Under the pieces are notes generated by a model, which saw nothing but the letters and a program-made list of their open reading frames with translations, ran no database searches and had not been told where the DNA came from. Both the position numbers and the translations under genes were made by a program. This document shows, in pieces, positions 1,825-20,552 of a DNA stretch of 64,000 nt (the stretch's first letter is position 1; each line of letters begins with the position of its first letter). Source of the DNA: Flaviramulus sp. (GTDB taxonomy: Bacteria; Bacteroidota; Bacteroidia; Flavobacteriales; Flavobacteriaceae). The stretch lies in contig JANQTJ010000020.1 of NCBI GenBank assembly GCA_030731745.1, forward strand, positions 1 to 64,000. The letters run 5' to 3'.

Positions 1825-3339
1825 ATGCTTGAGCCATATAAAAAAAAATATCACACCAATAACTTTCAATATATTCTAGTTGATGATTTGGGATGTGTTT
1901 TAGAAACGGACAATACCCTTTTTACAGTTCAAAAAGATAGTTTACTTCAAACTATTCATCCTTTTTTTGAAATATTAAATAGTTTATTGCAAATTGATAA
2001 TGACTGTTTTGAATTCTCTTGTATTAACCTGAATTTAGAAAAAAAAGTAGTAATTGTTGATACTATTATTTATTCACAAAACAAGAATGAAAATCTCATC
2101 ATTATTGAAAATTTAACCAAGCACTATAATAACTATCAACTTGCAGCACAAACAAGAAATGAGTCTATTATTAACTCTCAAATATTAGAGTTAAAAAATG
2201 AATACTTATTGGAAAAGGAAACTTTCAAGAACAATTTTATAGCAAATTTTAGCCATCAGCTTAGAAACCCAATAACAGCTTCAATAATTTTTAGTGATTT
2301 ACTAATTAATAGTGATTTAAATACTGAACAAAAAAATTATCTAGATATTATACAATCTGCAAATAAGGATTTGAAAAATAGAATTGAAGATATTTTAGAT
2401 ATATCTAAAATTGAATCAGGTAAGTTAATCTTAACTGAAAAAGTTTTTGATTTAAAAAAACTCTTGAATGATATAGTTAATGGTTACAAATTTTTAGCTT
2501 CAAAAAAAGGACTTGATTTTAATTTTGTAATTGATGAAAATATTCCTGAATTTATTAAAGGAGACCAATACAGGTTGAAACAAATTATTGGGAACCTTTT
2601 AAATAATGCTATTTCGTTTACCACTCAAGGCTCTGTAAATTTTAAAATAGCACTTAACTATATACGTGCAAAAAAAGCAAATCTTCGCATTGAGGTGTTA
2701 GACACGGGCTGCGGTATTGCTTCAGAAAACTTGGATTATATTTTTAAAAGATTTTCTAAAATAGAGTCTGAAAACCAAAACATTAAAGGTTCTGGACTAG
2801 GTTTAGCCATCGTAAAATATTTAATTTCTGAAATGCAAGGTAATATCAAAGTTGAAAGCGAAATTAATAAAGGCTCAAAATTTATATGCAATCTAAGTTT
2901 TAAACTTTCAGATTATAATCAAATTTTGAAAGAAGAATTGTTAAGTAAACAATTACTAGGTTTAGAAAAAAAGTATCATATTTTATTAGTTGAAGATTCA
3001 GAATTAATACAGCTTACTATTTTAAAAATATTAGCAGCTACTGGTAATTTTTTCATTAATATAATTTCTAAGGGCGAAGATTTAGTGCCAAATATTATTA
3101 ATCAAGATGTGGACTTAATCTTATTAACAAATACCATTCAGAATTTTTCTGCTATGGATTTAACTGCTTCTGTTCGTAATTTATCAAAAGATTATAAAAA
3201 AACGCCAATTATTGTACTATCTACTCTAGCATTTAAAGATGATGTAAAACGCTTTAAACAAGCAGGTGTAAACGATATTATAACCAAGCCTTTTGATGAA
3301 AAGAAACTGTTAGAAAAAATTTATAAATATATAAAATAA
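1825..3339 (+). CDS. hybrid histidine kinase with degenerate receiver
   Basis: A 504-residue soluble protein. Residues 1-110 look like a PAS-type sensor, followed by a helix to about 135. The dimerisation and phospho-acceptor helix has FSHQLRNP with His144. The ATPase domain has N-box Asn261, DTGCGI at 293-298 and GSGLGL at 322-327. The C-terminal receiver (about 384-504) keeps the acidic pair Glu390-Asp391 and Lys488, but the position normally holding the phosphorylated Asp (D-L-I-L-x-D) is Thr435. The kinase core thus looks active while the receiver probably cannot accept phosphate. There are no transmembrane helices, so the input is cytoplasmic, possibly the GTPase encoded 4 bases upstream. 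It ends at a strong terminator. Confidence 0.92.
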   Translation: MLEPYKKKYHTNNFQYILVDDLGCVLETDNTLFTVQKDSLLQTIHPFFEILNSLLQIDNDCFEFSCINLNLEKKVVIVDTIIYSQNKNENLIIIENLTKHYNNYQLAAQTRNESIINSQILELKNEYLLEKETFKNNFIANFSHQLRNPITASIIFSDLLINSDLNTEQKNYLDIIQSANKDLKNRIEDILDISKIESGKLILTEKVFDLKKLLNDIVNGYKFLASKKGLDFNFVIDENIPEFIKGDQYRLKQIIGNLLNNAISFTTQGSVNFKIALNYIRAKKANLRIEVLDTGCGIASENLDYIFKRFSKIESENQNIKGSGLGLAIVKYLISEMQGNIKVESEINKGSKFICNLSFKLSDYNQILKEELLSKQLLGLEKKYHILLVEDSELIQLTILKILAATGNFFINIISKGEDLVPNIINQDVDLILLTNTIQNFSAMDLTASVRNLSKDYKKTPIIVLSTLAFKDDVKRFKQAGVNDIITKPFDEKKLLEKIYKYIK

Positions 3340-3437: not shown

Positions 3438-5468
3438 TTACATCTTTATAATTATAAATTCAGATCTTCTGTTAAGTTGATGTTCAGACTCAGTACACTT
3501 AACGCCATTATTACAATTATTAATTAATTGAGATTCCCCGAATCCTTCAGCGCTTTCAATTCTGTTTGCTTCAATACCTTGGCTAATTATATAATCTCTT
3601 GTAGACTTTGCTCTTCGGTCTGATAACTTTAAATTATAATCATCGCTATCTCTAGCATCAGTATGAGATTCAATTTTTATAGTCATTTTAGGATATTGTG
3701 CCATCAATAATACAATCTTATTCAACTCTATTGAAGCATCATTTCTTATGAAAGATTTATCCAAATCAAAATAAATAATTCCTATTTTTATTTTTAATAA
3801 ACCACGTTCTTCAACTATTAATTTATTAAGTGTTTCAAGACCTAAGGCAACAACGGTTTCTCCATTTTCGTTTAATGTTATTATTGGTTTTTCTTTAGTT
3901 TCATATCCTGTTTTTGAAGCTATAACTTTAAAATTAGTAGCACAGTTTAGGATTGCATTAAATTTATAAGCTCCAGAAATGGTAGTTATTGCCGTTTCTA
4001 ATTCATCACCAGTTTCAGAAATTAGCGTCATTTCTACATTTGATATACGCTCTCCTGTAATAGAATTTGAAACGTAACCTCTAATTAACTGCTCGCATAA
4101 AACTTCTTCTTTTGGCAAGCGGATGAACGAATAAATATCATCATCGCCTTTGCCAGTTAATCTGTTAGAACATACAAACCCTTTGTTTTTTTCTTCATTA
4201 ACTATAAAACCAAAATCATCAAGTTCACTATTTAAAGGCGCTCCAAGATTTACTGGTTTTTGAAAATTAGCATCAATAATTCTACTTTCATAAACATCTA
4301 AACCTCCAAGTCCTAAATGACCATCAGATGCAAAATACAATGCATTGTCTGTTATATAAGGAAACATTTCGCGGCCTGCCGTATTTACCTTTTCGCCTAA
4401 GTTTCTAGGTTTAGAATATCCAGTATAGGTGCTATCTTGTATTTGGTTATTGGTGTCTTCATTTAAAATATCTACCACAAAAATATCAGTAGCTCCAATG
4501 GAACCAGGCATATCTGAAACAAAGTATAATAACTTTCCATCTGTACTCACTGTTGGATGTCCTACAGAGTAATCTTCACTATTAAAAGGTAACTCTTTTA
4601 CATTTTGCCATGTGGGCAAACTATCTTTATCCATACGTATCTCAGCACTGTAAAGTTTTAAATGATTTGTGCCTTTATCATCTCTTTGTAAATCTCCATC
4701 ATAATTATTTCTTGTAAAATATACTTTCGTTTCGTCTGGAGAAAAAGCTAATGTAGCTTCATGGTAGCGTGTGTTTAATTTATCTGAAAAAGCATCAATC
4801 AATTTTAAATCTGATTCTATTTTATTTAGCTTACCTAAATACATGTTCAAAAAAGGTTGTTCGTTCCAATGATAAATTCTAGTGTGATAGTTAGAAGAAT
4901 CTACTGCTGATGAATATACCAATTGGTCTTTATAATACATAGGACCAAAATCAGAATATTTAGTATTAATAGCTACGTTCTTTAATATAAACTGTGGTAA
5001 AATATCTAAAACATCTTCTACCGTCAAACTTTCTTGATCTAACAAATCAGACCTATCATCTTTGTTTTTAGTTTGTTTAGCAAACTCTTTCATCCAACGT
5101 TTAGCATCTCCATATCTTTCAACACCTTCTAATGTATGTGCATATCTAAAAATATATTCAGCATCAACTTCAGGATAAAAATCAGATATTAATTTATCAT
5201 ACCATCTGTAAGCATTTTTCATATCAGTATTAAAAAAATACGAATCTCCTGCTCTTTTTAAAAGATTGATATATGTTGAATCATTAGTCGTATTAAATTT
5301 TTTGTTTTTTCGTTCAAACTTACCAAGCTCTAATTCATATAAAACTGAAGCTTCTTTATACCACATTCTTTCAAAAAGTTTATCTGCTTTTTTAGTTGAA
5401 CTTTGTGAAAAAGAAATACTAATGGTAAATAATAATAAAAGTGTAATTGTATTTTTCATGTAGTTCAT
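3438..5468 (-). CDS. OmpA-family outer-membrane protein with PD40 repeats
   Basis: A 676-residue envelope protein. The signal peptide ends at ...ISISFSQ; an internal Met4 would be an equally good start. Residues 20-150 form TPR-like helices (AGDSYFFNTDMKNAYRWYDK), 160-450 WD40-like PD40 beta-propeller repeats (FSPDETKVYFTRN, PTVSTDGKLLYFVSD, YITDNALYFASDG), about 463-545 a carboxypeptidase-regulatory-like Ig fold, and about 556-676 an OmpA peptidoglycan-binding domain with the key ESHTDARDS and LSDRRAKS segments. This architecture recurs beside PorP/SprF proteins and T9SS-secreted giant adhesins in Flavobacteria. It starts 2 bases after the PorP/SprF stop and is the last gene of the operon. 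The likely role is anchoring or assisting surface display of the adhesin. Confidence 0.9.
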   Translation of the reverse strand: MNYMKNTITLLLLFTISISFSQSSTKKADKLFERMWYKEASVLYELELGKFERKNKKFNTTNDSTYINLLKRAGDSYFFNTDMKNAYRWYDKLISDFYPEVDAEYIFRYAHTLEGVERYGDAKRWMKEFAKQTKNKDDRSDLLDQESLTVEDVLDILPQFILKNVAINTKYSDFGPMYYKDQLVYSSAVDSSNYHTRIYHWNEQPFLNMYLGKLNKIESDLKLIDAFSDKLNTRYHEATLAFSPDETKVYFTRNNYDGDLQRDDKGTNHLKLYSAEIRMDKDSLPTWQNVKELPFNSEDYSVGHPTVSTDGKLLYFVSDMPGSIGATDIFVVDILNEDTNNQIQDSTYTGYSKPRNLGEKVNTAGREMFPYITDNALYFASDGHLGLGGLDVYESRIIDANFQKPVNLGAPLNSELDDFGFIVNEEKNKGFVCSNRLTGKGDDDIYSFIRLPKEEVLCEQLIRGYVSNSITGERISNVEMTLISETGDELETAITTISGAYKFNAILNCATNFKVIASKTGYETKEKPIITLNENGETVVALGLETLNKLIVEERGLLKIKIGIIYFDLDKSFIRNDASIELNKIVLLMAQYPKMTIKIESHTDARDSDDYNLKLSDRRAKSTRDYIISQGIEANRIESAEGFGESQLINNCNNGVKCTESEHQLNRRSEFIIIKM

Positions 5469-5470
5469 TT

Positions 5471-6388
5471 TTAAAAGAAACGTGGCGATTTTAATTGTTT
5501 TTCTCTTGACCTTAGCTCGAAACGCAACATAATTTCATGCGTTCCAGAGTTAAAGTTTCTCAATCTTGTTGTAGTTGCATCATAGGCGTAACCTATCATT
5601 AATTTAGGACCAATTTGCAAACCTATTAAACCACTCACAGAATCGTCCCAACGATAGGCTACACCTAGCCTTAAAGCATCATGAAACATAAAGTTTGCCG
5701 ATAAATCTGCGATAATTGGTGCGCCCACCACAAACTTTCCTAGAAAAGCAGGTTTAAACTTAATAGTTGGGCTTAAATCAAACACCTTCCCTGCTATTAA
5801 AAAGTAATGTAATCGTTCTGCAGCTATGGCGTTTTGGATTCCATCATAATGTTCATCTGTTAAAAAATTTGGTACAGATAAACCAACATAACTATTTTCA
5901 CTATGCCAATACACTCCAGCTCCAATAGTTGGTAAAAATTTATTTTCAATATTTTGCTGAAACACATTTTCTTGTTCTTGATAAGAACCTCTGGTCCAAT
6001 CAATATTTAACATTCTGCCTCCTCCTTTTATGCCAAAGGACAATTTACTATCATTATTTAAATTGATAGTGTATGAGAAATTAGCGTCAAGATAAAATTC
6101 ATCAGAAGGTCCTAAACGGTCGTTGACTAAAACAACACCTAATCCAACATTTTTACCAACAGGCGATTCTACACTAAACGATTGTGTCATTGGTGCACCA
6201 TCTAAGCCAACCCATTGTGTTCTATGAAGACCCGTTACAGTTAAATGCCCTCTAGATCCAGCATAAGCAGAGTTTACAGTTAATGTGTTAAACATATAAT
6301 CTGTGTATTGGGGGTCTTGTTGTGCATTAACATTATGTAATGCTAGCACTAATACTAGCCCTAATATTATTTTTAATTTTAAATTCAT
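5471..6388 (-). CDS. PorP/SprF family type IX secretion outer-membrane protein
   Basis: Predicted outer-membrane beta-barrel of the PorP/SprF family: the mature N-terminus QQDPQYTDYMFNTLTVNSAYAGSRG and the repeated amphipathic strands ending in a C-terminal phenylalanine are typical. I chose the ATG at 6388 because it opens a standard signal peptide (MNLKLKIILGLVLVLAL...NAQ); an in-frame ATG at 6430 would add 14 residues before it. Members of this family bind the peptidoglycan-side T9SS ring or act as carriers that tether type B cargo such as SprB. Its place directly after the gene for a type B cargo, 48 bases away, suggests it serves that adhesin specifically. Confidence 0.92.
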   Translation of the reverse strand: MNLKLKIILGLVLVLALHNVNAQQDPQYTDYMFNTLTVNSAYAGSRGHLTVTGLHRTQWVGLDGAPMTQSFSVESPVGKNVGLGVVLVNDRLGPSDEFYLDANFSYTINLNNDSKLSFGIKGGGRMLNIDWTRGSYQEQENVFQQNIENKFLPTIGAGVYWHSENSYVGLSVPNFLTDEHYDGIQNAIAAERLHYFLIAGKVFDLSPTIKFKPAFLGKFVVGAPIIADLSANFMFHDALRLGVAYRWDDSVSGLIGLQIGPKLMIGYAYDATTTRLRNFNSGTHEIMLRFELRSREKQLKSPRFF

Positions 6389-6436
6389 CTCTAAATTTTT
6401 ATATTTTAGGTACAATTTTGTTTTTTGCATCTATTA

Positions 6437-9400
6437 TTATCTTACAATGTATAACCAACCTGCTCTTGGTTCTGATCCATCACCTAGGTCTAAAACATAA
6501 TAATAGGTTCCTACCGGTAATTTTTCATTTTTGTTTACAACCGCTCTTCCGTTGGAAACTCCATCAAAGGTATTGTCATAACCTTCTTTTACATAAACTA
6601 CATTACCCCATCTGTTATAGATTTCAAGCTTATTGTTAGGGTAATTATTAATACAATCGATATAGAAAAATTCATTTTTACCATTCCCATTAGGTGAGAA
6701 TTCATTGTAAATATGTAAACATTGAGGATCTATTGTGGCATCATCTGTATCATTGCTTTCATCTGAATCAATTTGATCTAAGAATTCAAGTGACGCTGTA
6801 TTTACATAATCATTAATATCTAATACTTTAACAGTAATTTCTAACATTTCACTTGTACCTGCTGAAACCGATGGGATATTCCACAATCCAGATAACTCAT
6901 CATAAATTCCAGATGAAGCTTCGTAAGATATAAACTCATATCCACTTGGTAACAAGTCGATAATTTCTACTGAAGTAGCATCAATACCGCCTAAGTTTGA
7001 AGCTGTAATAGTAAATATTACCGTTTCAGCTATTGAAGGGTTAGCATTATCCACAGTTTTTGTTACCGCTATATCAGCAATTGGTGTGTTAATGAATGTA
7101 CTATCTTCATCATCTTCACTTTGGTCGCCATCATCATTATCAGGTTCACTGTTCGGATCAAATTGATCGCTTCCAATAATTTGAGCTATGTTTAAATACT
7201 CACCACCTTGTAATGTTGGCATATTTACAGTAGCATCATAAGTAATTGTTAATCCAGACAATGGCACATTTAAACCAGTCCAAGTAATAATGTTTCCTAT
7301 GAGTTCTCCACCATCGCTTATATTGGTAATATTACTGTAACCAATTGGTAAGATATCTTCTAGTGCAACGCCAGTCGCTGCATCAACACCTGCATTATCT
7401 ATTTGTAATGTAAAGGTTACCACATCGCCTACATTAGCATTCATGTTACTTACGGATTTAGCTAAACTTAAATCTGCAGTTTCAGTCATCACTAATATTC
7501 CGTCTTCATCATCTTCACTTTGGTCGCCATCATCATTATTTGGCTGACTATTAGGATCTATCACATCACTTGCAGTTACTTCGGCACTATTAAAATACTC
7601 GCCTGCTGTTCCTGTTGGTGCATTTACTATCACATCAATAAATAAACTTTGCGAGCTTCCGTTTGGAACAGTACCAACAGTCCATAACCCTGATACTTCA
7701 TCATATATTCCTGAAGTTGCACTAAAACGTACAAAGTCAAATCCTTGTGGTAATAAGTCTATCACCTCTACGTTAGTAGCTGCATCCGGACCTGCATTGT
7801 TTACTGTAATTTGGAATGTGATTTCGTCTCCAACATTTGGCATAATTTCATTATCTACTACAGTTTTCACTAAAGATAAATCTGCCATAGCATCTACTGG
7901 AGTAATTAATACATTGTCTTCATCATCCTCACTTTGGTCGCCATCATCGTTATTTGGTGCTGAATCATTATCCGCAACATCAGATCCTGATATTTGAGCG
8001 GTGTTTAAGTAATCTCCAGAACCGTTGACAAGAGCGTCAATTAATAACGTTTCCGTTGCACCATTAGCAATATTACCAATGTTCCAAATTCCTGTTACTT
8101 CATTATAAGTTCCAGATGTTGAACTGAACAAGATATAATCGAAACCTGATGGTAACAAGTCTGTTACTTCTACTCCTGTTGCGTCTTGTGGCCCATCATT
8201 TGTTACTGTTATTATGAATGTAATTTCAGAACCTACAATAGGCATTGTATCTCCATCAACAACATCTTTTGTTAATGATAAATCTGCAACAGAAATTACT
8301 GGGGTTACTATGGCATTATCTTCATCATCCTCACTTTGGTCACCATCATCGTTATTTGGTGTTGAATCTGAATCTGTTATATCAGATGAAGTTACTTCTG
8401 CAATATTTAAATAATCACCTGAAGAATTTACCAATACATCTATCAATAAAGTTTCTGATTCTCCATTGGCTATTCCACCAATATTCCAAATACCTGTTGT
8501 TTCATCATAAGCTCCTGATGTTGAACTAAACAATACATAATCATAGCCAGATGGTAATAAGTCTGTTACTTCAACACCTGTTGCATCTTGAGGACCATCA
8601 TTTGTTACTGTAATTTGAAATGTGATTTCTGAACCTACTAGAGGTGTCAAATCTCCATCTACAACAGTTTTTACTAACGATAAATCTGAAACAGATTCTA
8701 TTGGTGTTACAATAGCGTTATCTTCATCATCTTCACTTTGGTCACCATCGTCGTTGTTCGGAACAGAATCAACATCAAAAACATCTGAAGACGTTACTTC
8801 AGCAATATTCAAATAATCTCCTGTTGCATTGACTAAAACATCAATTAATAAAGTTTCAGATTCACCTGATAACACAGTGCCCAATGACCATAATCCTGTT
8901 GACTCATTATAAGTTCCTGATGTAGAACTGTACAATACAAAGTCATATCCTGATGGTAATAAATCCATCACTTCAACTCCTGTTGCATCTTGAGGACCAT
9001 CATTAAACACTCTTATTTCAAATGTAATTTCAGAACCTACAAGTGGTGTTATATCTCCATCAACAACTATTTTAGTTAATGATAAATCTGCCTGTGCTGG
9101 TGCTATCGTAATAGCATCCTCGTCATCATCGTCGCCATCGCCATCGCCATCCTCATCCACTGTCTCATCGGTAGTTGGGTCACTATCTGGATCGTACTGA
9201 TCACTTGCCGTGATTTGTACTGCATTGGTATACTCACCTGCTGCTCCTGTTGGGGCATTAACTAACGCCTCATAAGTAAGCACTACTGTACCATTATTTG
9301 CCGCTACACTTAATCCTGTCCAACTTGCTGTGTTACCTGTTGGTGTCCCACCATTATTTACTGTTCCTAATGTATAGCCTGCTGGTAAAATATCTTCTAC

Positions 9401-12400
9401 CGCTACACCTGTCGCTACATCTGGTCCTGCATTGGTAACCGTTAATGTAAATGTTACCGTATCGCCTACGTTTGGACTCGTGTTACTTATCGTTTTGCTG
9501 ATACTTAAATCGGCTTCTTGTATTGTTACGCCTACAGTGTCTTCATCATCGTCTGGGATGCCATCACCATTATCATCTACCGTATCATCGCTTGTTGGAT
9601 CACTGTCTGGATCATACTGATCTGAAGCTGTAATCTCTACGCCGTTAATGTACTCATTTGCAGCTCCTGTTGGAGCATCTACCGTAACATCAAAGGTTAA
9701 TGTAACGGTATCTGTGCCTAATGGTACGCTTAAGCCTGTCCAATTTACTGTGTCTAACCCTGCTAAGCTTCCTGCGCCACTTATGTTAGTAACATTACTG
9801 TAGCCCGCTGGCACAACATCTTGTATAGAAACACCCGTGGCCGCTACACTTCCGTCATTACTCAAGGTAATACTAAAGGTAACTACATCACCTACATTTG
9901 GCGTGCTGTCACTTACTGCTTTTGATATACTTAAATCTGAGGTCTGTGGCGTTACCGTGAAGTTATCTTCATCATCTTCACTTTGATCGCCATCATCGTT
10001 GTCAGGAGTACTGTTTGGATCGAACTGATCGCTACCGGTAATCTCTGCTACGTTGGTGTATTCTCCTGCTGTACCCGTTGGGGCATTAACTACAACATCG
10101 TAACTTAAAGTGATACTTGTTGTACCTGCTATACTTGCTATACTCCAATCGATTTGGTTACCTGTCTGGATACCTCCATTATCAATTGTAACTGTGGTAA
10201 TGGTATAACCTGCTGGTACAACATCCGAGACATCGACATTGGTCGCTGTATCTGGCCCATTGTTGGTCACAACAACCTCGAAGGTTACCGTATCCCCTAC
10301 ATTGGGGGTAGCACTACTTGCTGCACTGATGCCTTTGGCTAAAGATAAATCGGCTTGTGCTGGTACTACGACTTCATCATCCTCGTCATCTTCACTCTGG
10401 TCGCCATCATCGTTATCTGGATTACTATCTGGATCATACTGATCACTACCTGTAACTTCAGCTATATTTCTATATTCATCAACAGCACCTGTTGGAGCAT
10501 TAACTGTCACTTGATAACTTACAGTTGTTCCTGCTAATGGTACGTTCAGACCGCCCCAAGTAATTGTGGTATTACCAAGATTGAATGTTCCGCCGTTATC
10601 TATACTGCCTGGAACTAAACTATAACCTATTGGTAAGACATCATCGATACTTACGCCTGTACCTACTGCTGTACCACCATTGCTTATTGCTATACTAAAA
10701 GTCAGTATATCGCCTACGTTTACTGGTGCGCCATTGACGTCGGCTACCGTTTTATCTATTGATAAATCTGCTGTTTGTGGTACGATAACAAAAGTATCTT
10801 CATCATCGTCATCGCCCCCTGTTGTTGGGTCGTTGTCACCATCAGCATTATCTTCATCTACTGTATTGTCTGTTGTTGGATCACTATCGGGATCGTATTG
10901 ATCGCTTCCTGTGATTTGTGTCACATTTAAATATTCGTTTGGTACTCCTGTTGGAGCATTCACAGTTGCTTCATAAGTTACCGTAATACTGCCACTTGAC
11001 GGTACACTTAAGCCTGACCAAGTCGCTGTGTTACCAGCACCTGTTCCCGCATTGTTTACTCTCCCTAAAGTATAACCTATTGGAAGGATATCTTCTACTG
11101 ATACGCCAGTGGCAGTATCTGGACCATCATTGGTAATCACCAATTCGAACACTAACGTATCGCCTACATTTGGTGTCGCGCTCCCTGAGGCTAAACCTTT
11201 AGCTATACTTAAATCTGCCTGTGCTGGTGCTATCGTAATAGCATCCTCGTCATCATCGTCGCCATCGCCATCGCCATCCTCATCCACTGTCTCATCGGTA
11301 GTTGGGTCACTATCTGGATCGTACTGATCACTTGCCGTGATTTGTACTGCATTGGTATACTCACCTGCTGCTCCTGTTGGGGCATTAACTAACGCCTCAT
11401 AAGTAAGCACTACTGTACCATTATTTGCCGCTACACTTAATCCTGTCCAACTTGCTGTGTTACCTGTTGGTGTCCCACCATTATTTACTGTTCCTAATGT
11501 ATAGCCTGCTGGTAAAATATCTTCTACCGCTACACCTGTCGCTACATCTGGTCCTGCATTGGTAACCGTTAATGTAAATGTTACCGTATCGCCTACGTTT
11601 GGACTCGTGTTACTTATCGTTTTGCTGATACTTAAATCGGCTTCTTGTATTGTTACGCCTACAGTGTCTTCATCATCGTCTGGGATGCCATCACCATTAT
11701 CATCTACCGTATCATCGCTTGTTGGATCACTGTCTGGATCATACTGATCTGAAGCTGTAATCTCTACGCCGTTAATGTACTCATTTGCAGCTCCTGTTGG
11801 AGCATCTACCGTAACATCAAAGGTTAATGTAACGGTATCTGTGCCTAATGGTACGCTTAAGCCTGTCCAATTTACTGTGTCTAACCCTGCTAAGCTTCCT
11901 GCGCCACTTATGTTAGTAACATTACTGTAGCCCGCTGGCACAACATCTTGTATAGAAACACCCGTGGCCGCTACACTTCCGTCATTACTCAAGGTAATAC
12001 TAAAGGTAACTACATCACCTACATTTGGCGTGCTGTCACTTACTGCTTTTGATATACTTAAATCTGAGGTCTGTGGCGTTACCGTGAAGTTATCTTCATC
12101 ATCTTCACTTTGATCGCCATCATCGTTGTCAGGAGTACTGTTTGGATCGAACTGATCGCTACCGGTAATCTCTGCTACGTTGGTGTATTCTCCTGCTGTA
12201 CCCGTTGGGGCATTAACTACAACATCGTAACTTAAAGTGATACTTGTTGTACCTGCTATACTTGCTATACTCCAATCGATTTGGTTACCTGTCTGGATAC
12301 CTCCATTATCAATTGTAACTGTGGTAATGGTATAACCTGCTGGTACAACATCCGAGACATCGACATTGGTCGCTGTATCTGGCCCATTGTTGGTCACAAC

Positions 12401-15400
12401 AACCTCGAAGGTTACCGTATCCCCTACATTGGGGGTAGCACTACTTGCTGCACTGATGCCTTTGGCTAAAGATAAATCGGCTTGTTGAATTACAAAAGTA
12501 ACGGTATCTTCATCATCATCATCGCCACCAGTTGATGGATCGTTATCGCCATCGGCATTATCTTCATCTACTGTATTGTCTGTTGTTGGATCACTATCAG
12601 GGTCATCTAGATCACTTGCTATAATTTGCGCACTATTTGTATAATTCCCTGAGTCATTTACAATAGCATCGTAAGTTACTGTAGTTGATAATCCATTACT
12701 TAAAGATAAATTATTCCAAACAATTGAATTATTTCCGATATTATAAACTCCCGAATCTGTTATAGTTCCTGGTACAATATCAAAACCTGAAGGTAAAAGG
12801 TCTTCAATATCTACACCTGTAGCATCACCTGCTCCAAAGTTTTCTAATAAAATGGTAAATGTGACTGTATCTCCAACTGAACCCGAAATTGGCAAAACAG
12901 ATTTTGTTAATTGTAAATCTGCTGTTTCTAATACTATAGTAGCATTGTCTTCGTCATCTTCACTCTGGTCGCCATCATCATTATTTGCATTACTATCAGG
13001 ATCTGATTGGTCGCTAGATATAATTTCAGCTGTATTTAAATATTCATTTACTACACCAGTAGGTGTGTTAATAGTCGCTATTATATTTAAAACAGCAGGA
13101 ACTCCAGTAGTAATAGAACCTATATCCCAAACTCCTGTTCCTGCGTTATAATTACCTCCTGAATCATCACTTTGATAAGCATATCCACTAGGTAATTGAT
13201 CTAAAACATCAACATTTGTTGCTGTATTTGGACCAGCATTTGTTACTGTTATTGTAAATGTAACATTATCGCCAACACTAACATTAGTTGGAGAAACTGT
13301 TTTTTGTAATGATAAATCTGCAGATAGAATAGTAACTGATGCTGTATCTTCATCATCATCATCGCCACCAGTTGCAGGGTCTCCATCACCATCGGCATTA
13401 TCCTCATCTACTGTTTCATCTGTAGCTGGGTCACTATCTGGATCTAAATTATCACTTGCCGTAATTTGAGCAGAATTCACATAAGGTCCCGAAGCATTAA
13501 CGGTTGCGTTAAAAGTTAAGTTTAAAGTTGCTCCATTTAAAATAGCTAAATTAGTCCAGCTGATAGTTTGTGTTCCTAAATCGAATGTGCCACCATTCGA
13601 AACTGTTCCAGGCACTAAAGAAAAACCTAATGGCAAAACATCTTCAACATTAACACCAGTTGCATCAGCATTTGTTGCACTTGTATCATTATTGAAAATG
13701 GAAACTGTAAATGTAACAATGTCTCCTACATTTACATTTGGAGTTGATACCGTTTTTGTTAATTCTAAATCTGAAATTGGATTAATAGTAATAGTTACTT
13801 CATCTGACGCATTACTACACGTTCCGTTGGAAACAGTCCATCTAAAAACATACGTTCCAACTGTTGTTCCTGTAACTACAGTTGCGGGATCATTTTCATC
13901 AATAAAATTAGCTGCAGAAGGACCAGAAACTTGAGTCCAAGTTCCTACTCCAGCACTTGCGGGAGTTGCGCCTAACGTTACTGTTGAAAATTCTGGTAAA
14001 GATTGATCTGGGCCTGCGTTTGCAGTTATTGGATCTGAATATATAAGAATTTCCATAGTGTCAACGGAAGTACATCCTCCTCCAACTGCTGTCCAAGTAA
14101 ATTGATATGTTCCAGCAGATAACCCAAGCACTAAACTATTTGGGTTATTTGGTGCTGTAATTGTTGCCGGAGCTCCTCCTGTTTGCGTCCAAGTTCCAGT
14201 ACCTTCAGCCAAAGGTGTTGCTGAAAGAAAAGCTTGAGTGTTGTCACAATATTCCTGATCTGGACCTGCAATTGCTTGAGAAGGCGGTATTCCTGTATAA
14301 GTTAAACTTACTACATCAGATTGTGGTGCACATGCAGATGGATTTACAAAAGTTGCTCCTGAAGATGGAGGAGGATCATTTGTAACTGTCCAAGTTAATA
14401 CATACACATCATCAATTCCGTCATTTCCAACATCATCTGGAATATTACTTAATGATGTTTGTGGGTTATTAGGAGAGTCTATGATTACAAGACCGCCAGA
14501 TGGATCATCTCCAGGATTTGCAAAAGACCATTGACCAATTCCAACAGCTGGAGCCGTTGCATTAAGCACTGTATTTTGTTGACATGCTAATGGCTGATTT
14601 GGACCAGCTTCAGCTGGACTAGGCCCTTCAAAAACCTCAATTCTTACTATACTTGATTTATCTGTACAAAAACCTGTAGCAAAATTTAATTCGAATATAT
14701 ATAACCCAGGAGCTGATAATCCATTTACATCTGTTGTTTCACTATTGTTTGGCGATACAATTGTTGCTGCCGCTGGACCTGACAAAAACCGCCACTCTGA
14801 GGTAACATCAGCTGGAATTTCAGGAAACATCATCGTTGGATCTAAATTACCAGTCGTTAATGTTGCAGTTGTTGTATCTCCCATGCATATAAATTGGTTT
14901 TCGCCTGCATTAGGATCTTGACTCGGTCCATCACTAACTGTTACAGTTACCTGTTCTGTATTATTACACACAGATCCAGCTCCAGTATAATCAGTTGTAT
15001 ATTCGAATATGTAAACAGAACCAGCATCAACAGGTGCATTTGCTGTATTACTATTACTTGGTGATTGTGTTGGGGCATAAGGTGCTATAATGGCTGGAGT
15101 TGTATCGCCATCAACAGAAATTATACTCCATGTTCCTGTTGTACCCGATGTTGCTTCTAAAAAAACGCTTGTAACTAAACAAAGTTCTTGATCTGCCATA
15201 GGTTGTGCAGGAGCAAAAACATCAATAGTAACATCATCTGAAGAATTAGGACAAAACGGCGAACTACCAACAATGGTCCATCTAAACACATAAGAGCCTG
15301 TTGTAAGATTTGTTACGTTTATGGCATTGTTTCCTGGATCATTTATAGTTGGTGTGTTTGGTCCAGAAACTACGGTCCACGTTCCAGTTTCAGCATTTGG

Positions 15401-18124
15401 GTTAACTAAAGGATCAGCCGTAATATTTGTGTTTGTCGCCGCACAAATTACTTGATTTCCTCCTTGAATAACAGCTGTAGTAGGTGGAATCCCTACTTCA
15501 ATTGTAACTTGATCTGGTGTAGCGGAGGCTACACAATTCCCAAAATCAATTGCCCATTCAAAAACATAAGTTCCGTCTAATAAATTTGAAAAAGTTGCCG
15601 TTGGACTATTAATATCACTTACAGTATAACCTCCTAAACCAGAAACTAAATTCCATGTACCTTGTCCTCCATCTGGTGCAGGAGTTGCATTCATATCAAA
15701 AGATAATAATACAGGGTCTAAACATAATTGTAATTGGTCTGGGCCAGCATCAATAACTGTACTTGAATCAGCTACAACAACTTCTACTGTATCTAGTGTT
15801 GATGGACATGCATTAGGCGGTGGTGCAGAATAAGCTATTTCCCATTGAAATTCATATTGCCCATCTATTAATCCTGTAACTTCTGATGTTGGGCTATTTG
15901 GACTTGTAAAAGATGCTGCATTTGGCCCTGAAATTTGTGTCCAAGTTCCTGTCTCATCAACATCTGGTACATTTCCACTAAGGTTTGGAATTGTCGTCAC
16001 ACCAGATCCAAAACAAAAATCTGCCCCAGCATCAGCTATTGTAGGCGATTCATCTGCCGAAGTTGTTATAATAACATCATCCGTTGCAGCTGGGCCACAG
16101 TTTACAAAATCATTTAAAAGAGACCATGTTAATGTATAAACCGTTGAAGGTAATGCAAAACCTGTTGCTATCGCATTTGGATCATTTACATCAGAAAAAA
16201 CGACGCTGGGATCTGAGGCAGTCCATGTTCCTGTTTGGCTATCTGTACCTGGATCTGCAGCTAATTGTACCGGCGCATTAAAACAAACTGTTTGATTTGC
16301 TCCAGCTTCAACAGGAGAATTATCTAAAGGAGAAACAAAAACACTAGTATCAGATACTAGTGGTGGTGTACAATTTGGGCCAGCAGTTACAGTATATCTA
16401 AACACATATTCCCCTGGAATAAGTCCCGATATAGTTGTGGTTCTAGCATAAATATCTGCTATGGTTGCAGTATTTGGACCAGATACCTGAGACCATACTG
16501 AAATTTCTCCAGGTAAAATGGCACTACCAGCAATTGTACCTCCAACTTGACCACAAATAAAAGTTTGAGGCGATCCTGCATTGGCACCAGATATAGGAGT
16601 AGAAATAAATATATTAATGGCATCGTTAGCAGTATCACAACTCTGTAAAAGATTACCTGTTCTTATTCTTCTAAAATTTACTGTATATGTACCGGCAACA
16701 TCAAAAACATTAATATTGGCTGTACCACTATTTGCACTTCCCAAATTTGTATATGCTGTTGGAAATGTTAGTCCTGAATCTGCAGGACCGTTAACAATAC
16801 TATATTCTGTTCCATTTCCGCTTGTTGAAGCATATGGAACAGGAATTGACGTATCACCACAATCTCCAATAATATCGTTACCAGAATTTGCACTCATGCT
16901 TATAGGATTTACATTATACCTAACATTAACAATAGCACTGGATGTACAAAGAGTAGCCGAGTTTTCAATGGTATACCTAAATTGGTAGGCACTAGGAGAT
17001 GTAAGTCCTGTAACCTGTGTTGTGGCACTAGTTGGGTCTACTATTGTAGCGGCAGGACCACTTATTTGTTCCCAAAGTACCGTTTCATTTGTAAAGTCTG
17101 GAGAATTCCCTACTAAAGTCGTTTCAGTAATTGATGGATCACAAAAACGTTGATTATCATTAGAAATGCTAGCCTGTGTAACATCTTGCGTTGCCGGTGG
17201 TACAGTAACTGTAACTGTATCACTACCAGAAACACAAGGTCCAACAACATCCCATCTAAATGTATAAACCCCCTCAGACAAACCATTAACACTTGTATTA
17301 TTCGCATTAGGACTAACAATATTTGGGCTTGACGGCCCACTAACAAATGACCATGTGCCTTCTTGACCATTAATATTGTTACCTCCAAAGCTTCCGTTTA
17401 AATTTGTGTTTTGGCTTACTGTATAACAGTTAGATAATGTTTGATCAGTACCAGCATCAACTGGTGTTTCACCACCATAATTAGTAATTATAATGTCATC
17501 AAAGGATTCACAAAATTGTCCTGGTGCATATTCGGCACCTGTAATAGTCCATCTTAAAGTAGTTGTCCCAGCACTGCCTTCAGGTAAAGTAATTGTAGAT
17601 GTGGCAGAATTAATTTGGTTAACTACAACTCCTGCCCCGTTAGTTCCATTTACAGACCAAACTCCCGTTTCTCCGGGGTTATCTGGAGCATTTGCATTTA
17701 TTATTAACGAACCTGAACTGTCTGGACAAGAAGACACATCTGAACCTGCATCAGCTATGGTAATTGGCTCTACTATAAACGAAACTGTTTGAGAAGGTGT
17801 ATCTCCATTTGGGCAAACCGCGGATAACTGAAATATATATGTGTTTCCTCCAGAAAATCCTGTAATTACTGGATTATCAATTGAAGGGTCACTAATAACT
17901 ACTAATGGACCTCCGATTTGTGACCACGTAGGCCCTTCTGCATAAGTATCTGGTGAATTACCATTTAACTGAAAAAGGTCATTAGAACAAATTGTTTGAT
18001 CAATGCCAGCATTTATTGTACATGATTGAGCATTTAATGAATCTGCACCAAATAATAGTAATAGTAATAAAAAAGCATATATGTATGTAATACTTGTTTT
18101 CTTGCCAGGGTAGAGATTATCCAT
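6437..18124 (-). CDS. giant repeat adhesin with T9SS type B (gliding-motility-associated) C-terminal domain
   Basis: A 3,895-residue cell-surface protein. Signal peptide: residues 1-33, ending SLNAQ. Residues 34 to about 1450 hold about 15 Ig/PKD-like units of about 95 residues, each with DAGPDQ..C near the start and GTWSQVSGP then [15 protein letters not shown]. About 1450 to 3800 hold 17 DUF11 repeats (DLSLxKTVxxxxPNVGDxVTF ... NxGPxxATxVxVxDxLPxGY) joined by Asp-rich linkers such as [19 protein letters not shown] that probably bind calcium. The last 95 residues ([18 protein letters not shown] ... YNRWGNVVY ... [13 protein letters not shown]) are a clear type B sorting domain. Two 425-residue segments (about 1880-2305 and 2589-3014) match at every stretch compared. 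Probable role: adhesion or gliding, exported with the two genes downstream. No catalytic domain is visible. Confidence 0.95.
9083..10358 (-). repeat. 1,276-bp direct repeat within the adhesin gene, copy 2 in protein order
   Basis: I found no difference from 11210-12485 in any stretch I compared; the copies diverge at both ends (9082 against 12-base-equivalent 11209, and 10359 against 12486). The offset is 2,127 bases, a multiple of three, so the copies are in the same frame. Each encodes three DUF11 repeats. Confidence 0.9.
11210..12485 (-). repeat. 1,276-bp direct repeat within the adhesin gene, copy 1 in protein order
   Basis: Partner of the copy at 9083-10358. The 851 bases between the copies (10359-11209) encode two further, non-identical DUF11 repeats, so recombination between the copies would remove or add 709 residues without breaking the frame. 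Confidence 0.9.
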
Positions 18125-19027: not shown

Positions 19028-20248
19028 TCACTCTAATATCAATTTTAGCTTTTCCATGTCCTGACTCACCTTCTTTTCCACTACTCTAGCGTAGATTTGT
19101 GTTGTCGCCAACTTTGTATGACCCAAAAGTTTTGAAACCGTTTCTATTGGAACACCATTAGTTAAAGTTACGGTTGTGGCAAAGGTGTGACGCGCCATAT
19201 GAAAAGTAAGGTTCTTATTGATACCGCAAAGATCCGCTAGTTCCTTTAGATAGCTATTCAATTTTTGATTGGACAATTTAGGTAGAAGAATATCATTATT
19301 AGAAGTTCTAAAATTATTTTTATACTTATCGATTAAGAAACTAGCCTTAGGAAGTAAAGGTATTTTAAAAGGTGTTCCAGTCTTAATTCTCTTGGCTGAT
19401 ATCCAAGAAAGACCATCTATTCCCTTTACTAAATTAACGGTTGTCAATCGAACAATATCACTATAAGAAATACCTGTATAACAACTAAAAACAAATAAAT
19501 CTTTAACAACTACTAGACGTTCAATCTTAGAGGATAAATTCTCAATACTTTGTAATTCCTCGCTAGTAAGAAATTCTCGTTCCTTCTTTTCAATTTTTAT
19601 TTTATAATTAACAAATGGGTCTCTATCAATCCATTCCATCTGATAAGCAAGAGTAACCATTCTACGTAATCGTTTTATATGTTTCATAGCTGTATTATTT
19701 CCAATTTTAGATTGGCCACTCTTTGGTATATACGAGCGCAGAAAATCTTCAAAACCTATTACAAAACTATAATCAAGTTCAGAGAGAAGAATATCGGTAA
19801 TTTTATATTCTTTTAAAATATACTCCATCATATACCTTTGACTAGTCTTATATTGACCCATAGTATTTTTATGCAACTTGTGTTGCATCTTATGATTATG
19901 ATAGTCAATAAGATTTTGAAAAGAAAAACGCCTACTGTCTTCACCTAGATATCTAGCTTTTACCATTTGGGAAGTAAATGGCTTATCGTCCTTCTTAAAA
20001 TCTTCGTAAATCCGATAAACTTTTGATTGTACCTCGTTCAAATAAAGATTTAGAATACGTGAATCCTTATCTGTCCCAATTGCTCTCTGGGTTTTTTCAT
20101 CCCAAGTAGTAATATTAATTTTCCTTTTGAGACTAACATTAACGCGCTTACCATTTAAGGTAATACGCACGTAGATATTTACTTGATCTTTAATGACTCG
20201 TTTACCGTATACCCAAAACAGTACTGAAAATGTTGTTGAAGTTCTCAT
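19028..20248 (-). CDS. tyrosine site-specific recombinase (integrase) of the Bacteroidota mobile-element type
   Basis: A 406-residue integrase. Residues 1-85 form an arm-site DNA-binding domain (VYGKRVIKDQVNIYVRIT, a pattern of Bacteroidota integrases), about 108-205 the SAM-like core-binding domain, and 225-406 the catalytic domain. Catalytic residues visible are His350 and Arg353 in HMARHTF, His377 in LGHTKLATTQIY, the nucleophile Tyr386, and Lys286 as a candidate. The first catalytic arginine, normally in a TGLR motif, is absent (TGISYSDI at 258-265), a change also known in IntDOT-type enzymes. It is flanked by tRNA-Asp and the tRNA-Leu relic, with no excision, mobilisation or cargo genes nearby, so it looks like the remainder of an integrative element. 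The reading frame is intact. Confidence 0.92.
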   Translation of the reverse strand: MRTSTTFSVLFWVYGKRVIKDQVNIYVRITLNGKRVNVSLKRKINITTWDEKTQRAIGTDKDSRILNLYLNEVQSKVYRIYEDFKKDDKPFTSQMVKARYLGEDSRRFSFQNLIDYHNHKMQHKLHKNTMGQYKTSQRYMMEYILKEYKITDILLSELDYSFVIGFEDFLRSYIPKSGQSKIGNNTAMKHIKRLRRMVTLAYQMEWIDRDPFVNYKIKIEKKEREFLTSEELQSIENLSSKIERLVVVKDLFVFSCYTGISYSDIVRLTTVNLVKGIDGLSWISAKRIKTGTPFKIPLLPKASFLIDKYKNNFRTSNNDILLPKLSNQKLNSYLKELADLCGINKNLTFHMARHTFATTVTLTNGVPIETVSKLLGHTKLATTQIYARVVEKKVSQDMEKLKLILE

Positions 20249-20454: not shown

Positions 20455-20478
20455 GAGGGTTTTTGACAACCCTTTTTG

Positions 20479-20552
20479 CGGTCTGGACGGGACTCGAACC
20501 CGCGACCTTCGCCGTGACAGGGCGACATTCTAACCAACTGAACTACCAGACC
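20479..20552 (-). tRNA. tRNA-Asp (anticodon GTC)
   Basis: A 74-base cloverleaf on the minus strand: acceptor GGTCTGG pairs with CCAGACC, discriminator G, D arm TAGTTCAGTTGGTTAGA, anticodon arm with CTGTCAC (GTC anticodon at 20516-20518), and T arm GCGGGTTCGAGTCCCGT. The CCA end is not encoded. All stems pair and invariant bases are present. Confidence 0.97.

Follow-up and report, generated by a model that had tools for sequence, protein, structure and literature searches.

Why does a surface-protein gene of Flaviramulus sp. carry the same 1,276 bp twice, and what has kept the two copies identical? In the stretch of DNA that we analysed (64,000 nucleotides; hereafter, the window), the original prediction described 9083-10358 and 11210-12485 as identical, sharp-ended copies lying 2,127 bases (709 codons) apart. 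Base-by-base alignment confirmed this: 1276/1276 bases agree (0 mismatches) at an offset of 2127 bp, and adding one base at either end breaks the match. Identity at the same offset falls to ~20-40% outside the repeat, other than 47-54% just below 9083, at a neighbouring domain that is alike. Chance is excluded, since other DUF11 repeats of the gene are only ~60-80% alike in DNA. Nowhere else in the 2.36-Mb assembly does the repeat match at full length, and a search of a plasmid collection with the repeat returned no match.

The repeat lies in an unbroken ORF of 3895 aa on the minus strand, open in frame throughout the array. Its product runs from a PKD-like N-terminal part through 17 DUF11 domains to a C-terminal CHU_C domain, a type B sorting domain (PF13585, E 1.1e-27 in Pfam; TIGR04131, 41.1 bits against a cut-off of 35 in NCBIfam). 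Together with the porP/sprF-like gene directly downstream, this domain marks the gene product, by sequence, as a predicted T9SS type B CTD adhesin. A porE-like gene comes third in the order; its near full-length matches to the NCBIfam PorE and CHU_0125 models score under the cut-offs, and its product is probably a peptidoglycan anchor.

6437-18124, minus strand: T9SS type B CTD adhesin gene (ORF, translation, Pfam, NCBIfam TIGR04131)
5471-6430, minus strand: PorP/SprF-like outer-membrane shuttle and anchor gene, 319 aa (PF11751, E 3.5e-89; TIGR03519 above cut-off)
3438-5468, minus strand: PorE-like gene with PD40, carboxypeptidase-regulatory-like and OmpA domains (Pfam, NCBIfam)

The same genome holds three further PorP/SprF-like genes (G000:C39:60316-61239, 15667-16587 and 4780-5598), the first of which is 43% identical to the gene beside the adhesin. 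Elsewhere in the window, a small Ras-like GTPase gene (1332-1820) adjoins one for a hybrid histidine kinase with a response-regulator domain (1825-3339). Just upstream of the adhesin, a phage-type tyrosine integrase gene (19028-20248) adjoins a tRNA-Asp gene (20478-20552), a neighbourhood that is possibly an integration site. A conserved integrase next to the adhesin as a driver was considered and rejected: the upstream gene is FtsA-like in Hyunsoonleella and encodes a DUF6377 protein in Tamlana sp. I1, and no conserved upstream partner was seen in these two sampled relatives.

Cutting the protein at a recurring domain start gave the 17 units, in which the repeat (R) corresponds to three whole DUF11 domains, a-b-c (425 aa). 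The exact match takes in 4 nt ahead of a and ~9 nt of the domain that follows c. The full domain order is 1-2-3-[abcde]-[abc]-12-17, so that a 2127-bp unit of five domains (709 aa) is present 1.6 times. The five-domain unit of the original prediction is thus the recombining unit, the exact repeat itself spanning three domains. Adjoining domains within the array are 49-67% identical over approximately their first 110 residues, whereas the copies of the block are identical.

9083-12485, minus strand: whole array [abcde][abc], 1.6 units of 2127 bp, with raised fourfold-site GC
11210-12485, minus strand: repeat R, first copy (5' in the gene), 0/1276 differences
12068-12481, minus strand: domain a1
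11642-12067, minus strand: domain b1
11219-11641, minus strand: domain c1
10359-11209: stretch between the two R copies, 851 bp
10355-11218, minus strand: domains d and e, single copy in this assembly
10772-11218, minus strand: domain d
10355-10771, minus strand: domain e
9083-10358, minus strand: repeat R, second copy, 0/1276 differences
9941-10354, minus strand: domain a2
9515-9940, minus strand: domain b2
9092-9514, minus strand: domain c2

A second array, of single-domain 402-bp units, follows the first (domains 12-14, 7883-9091). Its copies have diverged in the window; in Algibacter miyuki (locus L069), domains 23-25 are three near-identical copies.

Orthologous adhesin genes, found through their PorP/SprF-like neighbour, show this layout in further members of the Flavobacteriaceae. 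The A. miyuki adhesin (5555 aa) reads (abcde)x3 abc in the same phase as the window and so has four abc copies; its contig name ('tig..._pilon') was read as that of a long-read assembly. Two further genomes, G072 and G362, carry one block plus abc (abcde-abc) in the same order and phase. In the window, A. miyuki and G072, the edges of the array coincide with the same domain starts to within 0-3 nt; for G362 the left edge falls at that junction too, and the right edge gave no clean reading. In Algibacter W4E, G468 and Hyunsoonleella, slot 4 is taken by another domain and b-c-d-e-a-b(-c) follows, and the 5' edge of the array is therefore not fixed. At slot 4 of loci L070, L117, L122 and L127, a domain closest to domain 2 replaces a1, where the window has a. 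In Flavivirga algicola, Tamlana sp. I1, sp. 2_MG-2023 and T. agarivorans, a lone abc links domains 1-3 to the C-terminal part. In these Flavivirga and Tamlana genomes with zero blocks, no separate d-e copy was found, the best d-e matches being other domains of the same gene. Block number at the same place thus takes the values 0, 1 and 3 among genera.

Near-identity within genomes is equally widespread. By domain, abc copies of one genome are 100% identical in the window, 94.8-100% in A. miyuki, 97.6-99.8% in G072 (13 differences in 1257 bp) and 95.8-100% in G362. The corresponding dS values are 0, 0.01-0.10, 0.03 and 0.08; dS between the window and other genera is ~0.8-1.8 or saturated. In G468 only b is clearly homogenised, and the Xanthomarina copies are only 83-88% alike. 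In a tree of the domains, the copies of a, b and c pair by genome, mostly with strong support. The d domains fall in a single clade (99/99) to which each genome contributes one lineage, and the e domains in a second, less well supported clade (85/96). Within-genome copies that are mostly 95-100% identical, beside near-saturated synonymous sites between genera, are the classical pattern of concerted evolution, to which these sequences point.

We conclude that what is seen as a repeat very probably belongs to an old tandem array of higher order, (abcde)n abc, located in a DUF11 stalk, with copies kept alike by recombination. Because the layout and its same-junction edges are common to several genera, and d and e each group across genera, the [abcde][abc] duplication itself appears old and only the identity recent. 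Of the earlier alternative, 'recently made or homogenised', the second half stands on the within-genome identity, and the first falls on the layout and junctions that several genera have in common. Homologous recombination among the near-identical abc segments, through gene conversion and unequal crossing-over, would keep the copies alike inside each genome. Occasionally it would also remove or add one five-domain block (709 aa) in frame, altering the length of the stalk. The predicted gain or loss of five DUF11 repeats holds to this extent: recombination would shift exactly five domains in frame, and relatives have 0, 1 and 3 blocks, a variation seen across genera. Judged from sequence, then, the protein can change length, as block number does across genera and as we infer for change within a strain.

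A one-off duplication of abc (or abcde) in this lineage, recent and not followed by continuing homogenisation, would give the same perfect identity and sharp ends. Other genera have the same layout and junctions, however, d and e are common to several of them, and the copies in G072, G362 and A. miyuki are near-identical within each genome too. A recent origin would thus need repeated independent duplication at the same codons, which is less parsimonious than a shared old layout, and we regard such an origin as very unlikely.

The caution about collapse or duplication in assembly in the original prediction was justified. The window comes from a 75%-complete draft of 46 contigs in which no 16S gene was detected, which would fit short reads. 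With such reads, the assembly graph around R would contain a loop that may be unrolled once, fixing the block number at 1, and copies differing by a few bases could be merged. In relatives, contigs break at both array edges. Contigs with the N-terminal side end 8-45 aa past the array 5' edge in Algibacter 4-1434, Algibacter H2, T. nanhaiensis (here past slot 4), Yeosuana and Jejuia. Those with the C-terminal side begin 22-85 aa before domain 12 in six genomes, and the Hyunsoonleella scaffold has a 93-N gap inside its array. Repeats too long for the reads explain these contig ends.

These observations could also reflect an artefact, either with no duplication at all or with a true duplication whose identity and copy number stem from graph collapse or loop unrolling. 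Against this, G072, G362 and G468 were assembled through the same layout with differing copies, A. miyuki has its four abc copies, and the frame is open across the entire array. An artefact is accordingly very unlikely as the account of this locus, and a duplication that does not exist is the unlikely form of it; its weaker form, a wrong block number or smoothed identity, may apply, and the single block in the window may be a lower bound. Adhesin genes of this kind break or collapse at the array in draft assemblies, which makes their true length in drafts uncertain.

The array also differs from its surroundings in base composition. GC reaches 43-45% over 9-12 kb, whereas the window as a whole has 32%. 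At fourfold sites, individual domains a-e have 23-37% GC and the single DUF11 domains flanking them 5-21%; 13 other window genes pooled give 19%. Stratified by amino acid, array and flanks differ at 29.2% against 12.9% (CMH OR 2.78, p 5e-9), although such p-values overstate the evidence because codons are not independent, genomes share ancestry and the comparisons were chosen after the pattern was noticed. Recent import of the array from a higher-GC donor would account for both the identity and a fourfold-site GC ~2x that of the flanks, but it is highly improbable, as the tree places d and e of the window with those of Algibacter W4E and Hyunsoonleella, the array is no less diverged from relatives at synonymous sites than domains 1-3 are, and the same local GC rise occurs at the same slots in several genera.

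Under continuing recombination among the abc copies, the reading we favour, GC-biased gene conversion over the exchanging slots is a candidate explanation that fits the GC rise. Hyunsoonleella, Algibacter W4E and G468 show a comparable rise, and A. miyuki, G072 and P. marinus a smaller one. The rise is absent, as biased conversion would predict, from Xanthomarina, with its less alike copies, and from the Tamlana genomes with abc alone. By locus, fourfold-site GC is raised over the homogenised slots and not over other DUF11 domains in the window (9083-12485) and also in L069, L070, L116, L117 and L127. The slot-4 domain of Algibacter W4E, outside the repeat, stands at 9%, and in G468 the unhomogenised second c is at 9% against 30% for the first c. 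In A. miyuki, the three-copy single-domain array of domain 13 reaches 30-32%, compared with 8-17% for the single-copy counterparts in the window, Hyunsoonleella and Algibacter W4E. G362 clearly departs from the pattern: its copies are homogenised, yet GC is not raised. Flavivirga, with one abc, stands at 48% against 26%, perhaps a remnant of an array since lost. Variants among the A. miyuki copies could not be polarised and have no clear AT/GC direction, and local codon selection or import from a GC-richer donor is a possible source of the raised GC.

We suggest only tentatively that homogenised repeats within one bacterial gene bear a local signature of GC-biased conversion while neighbouring domains of the same family stay at background. 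Whether gene conversion prefers GC in bacteria is debated. If the suggestion is true, the adhesin would let biased conversion in bacteria be tested in nature with its control built in, as comparing array slots with the remaining slots of one gene holds expression, domain family and genome constant.

As to function, the adhesin would be secreted by the type IX system and is likely a rod-like stalk anchored via PorP/SprF, with PorE perhaps contributing to the anchoring. AlphaFold predicted the b-c pair as two all-beta domains (mean pLDDT 88.7) joined by an acidic, low-confidence linker (pLDDT of linkers 54-67), and Foldseek matched the predicted pair to integrin alpha chains. A sequence search of the PDB with the b-c profile gave no match at E 0.001. 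In the N-terminal part, Pfam returned PKD-like matches only, and no distal binding domain that the stalk might project was identified there.

Our literature search found nothing specific to this adhesin array, which resembles three known systems in part. Like type B CTD adhesins of F. johnsoniae with PorP/SprF shuttles, such as SprB-SprF (PMC12618676, PMC9143113), the adhesin has a type B sorting domain and a porP/sprF-like gene directly downstream. It differs from sprB-sprF in the porE-like gene that follows, and from the F. johnsoniae adhesins in its stalk of DUF11 domains with a higher-order array. For type B proteins encoded beside a porE-like gene, wall anchoring rather than mobility has been postulated (PMC9143113). 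The GC signal parallels bacterial GC-biased gene conversion as described by Lassalle et al. 2015 (PMC4450053), with higher GC where intragenic recombination is inferred; their contrast is among genes across the genome, ours among slots and repeats inside one gene.

A further likeness is to the Periscope Proteins (SasG, Rib, Sgo_0707 and CdrA; PMC8201768), which also have a repetitive surface-protein stalk with very high DNA identity between repeats, here 0/1276 differences. Their repeat number varies, which is attributed to intragenic recombination; in the adhesin, the variation seen in number is that across genera. Periscope-type proteins are described as arrays of highly similar neighbouring domains, which runs against the rule that adjacent domains ought to be unlike so as not to misfold (PMC8201768). 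In the adhesin, by contrast, the unit is made of five different DUF11 domains, and neighbours are only 49-67% identical. Repeating five different domains together as one block would leave neighbours unlike each other and yet offer recombination long stretches of identical DNA.
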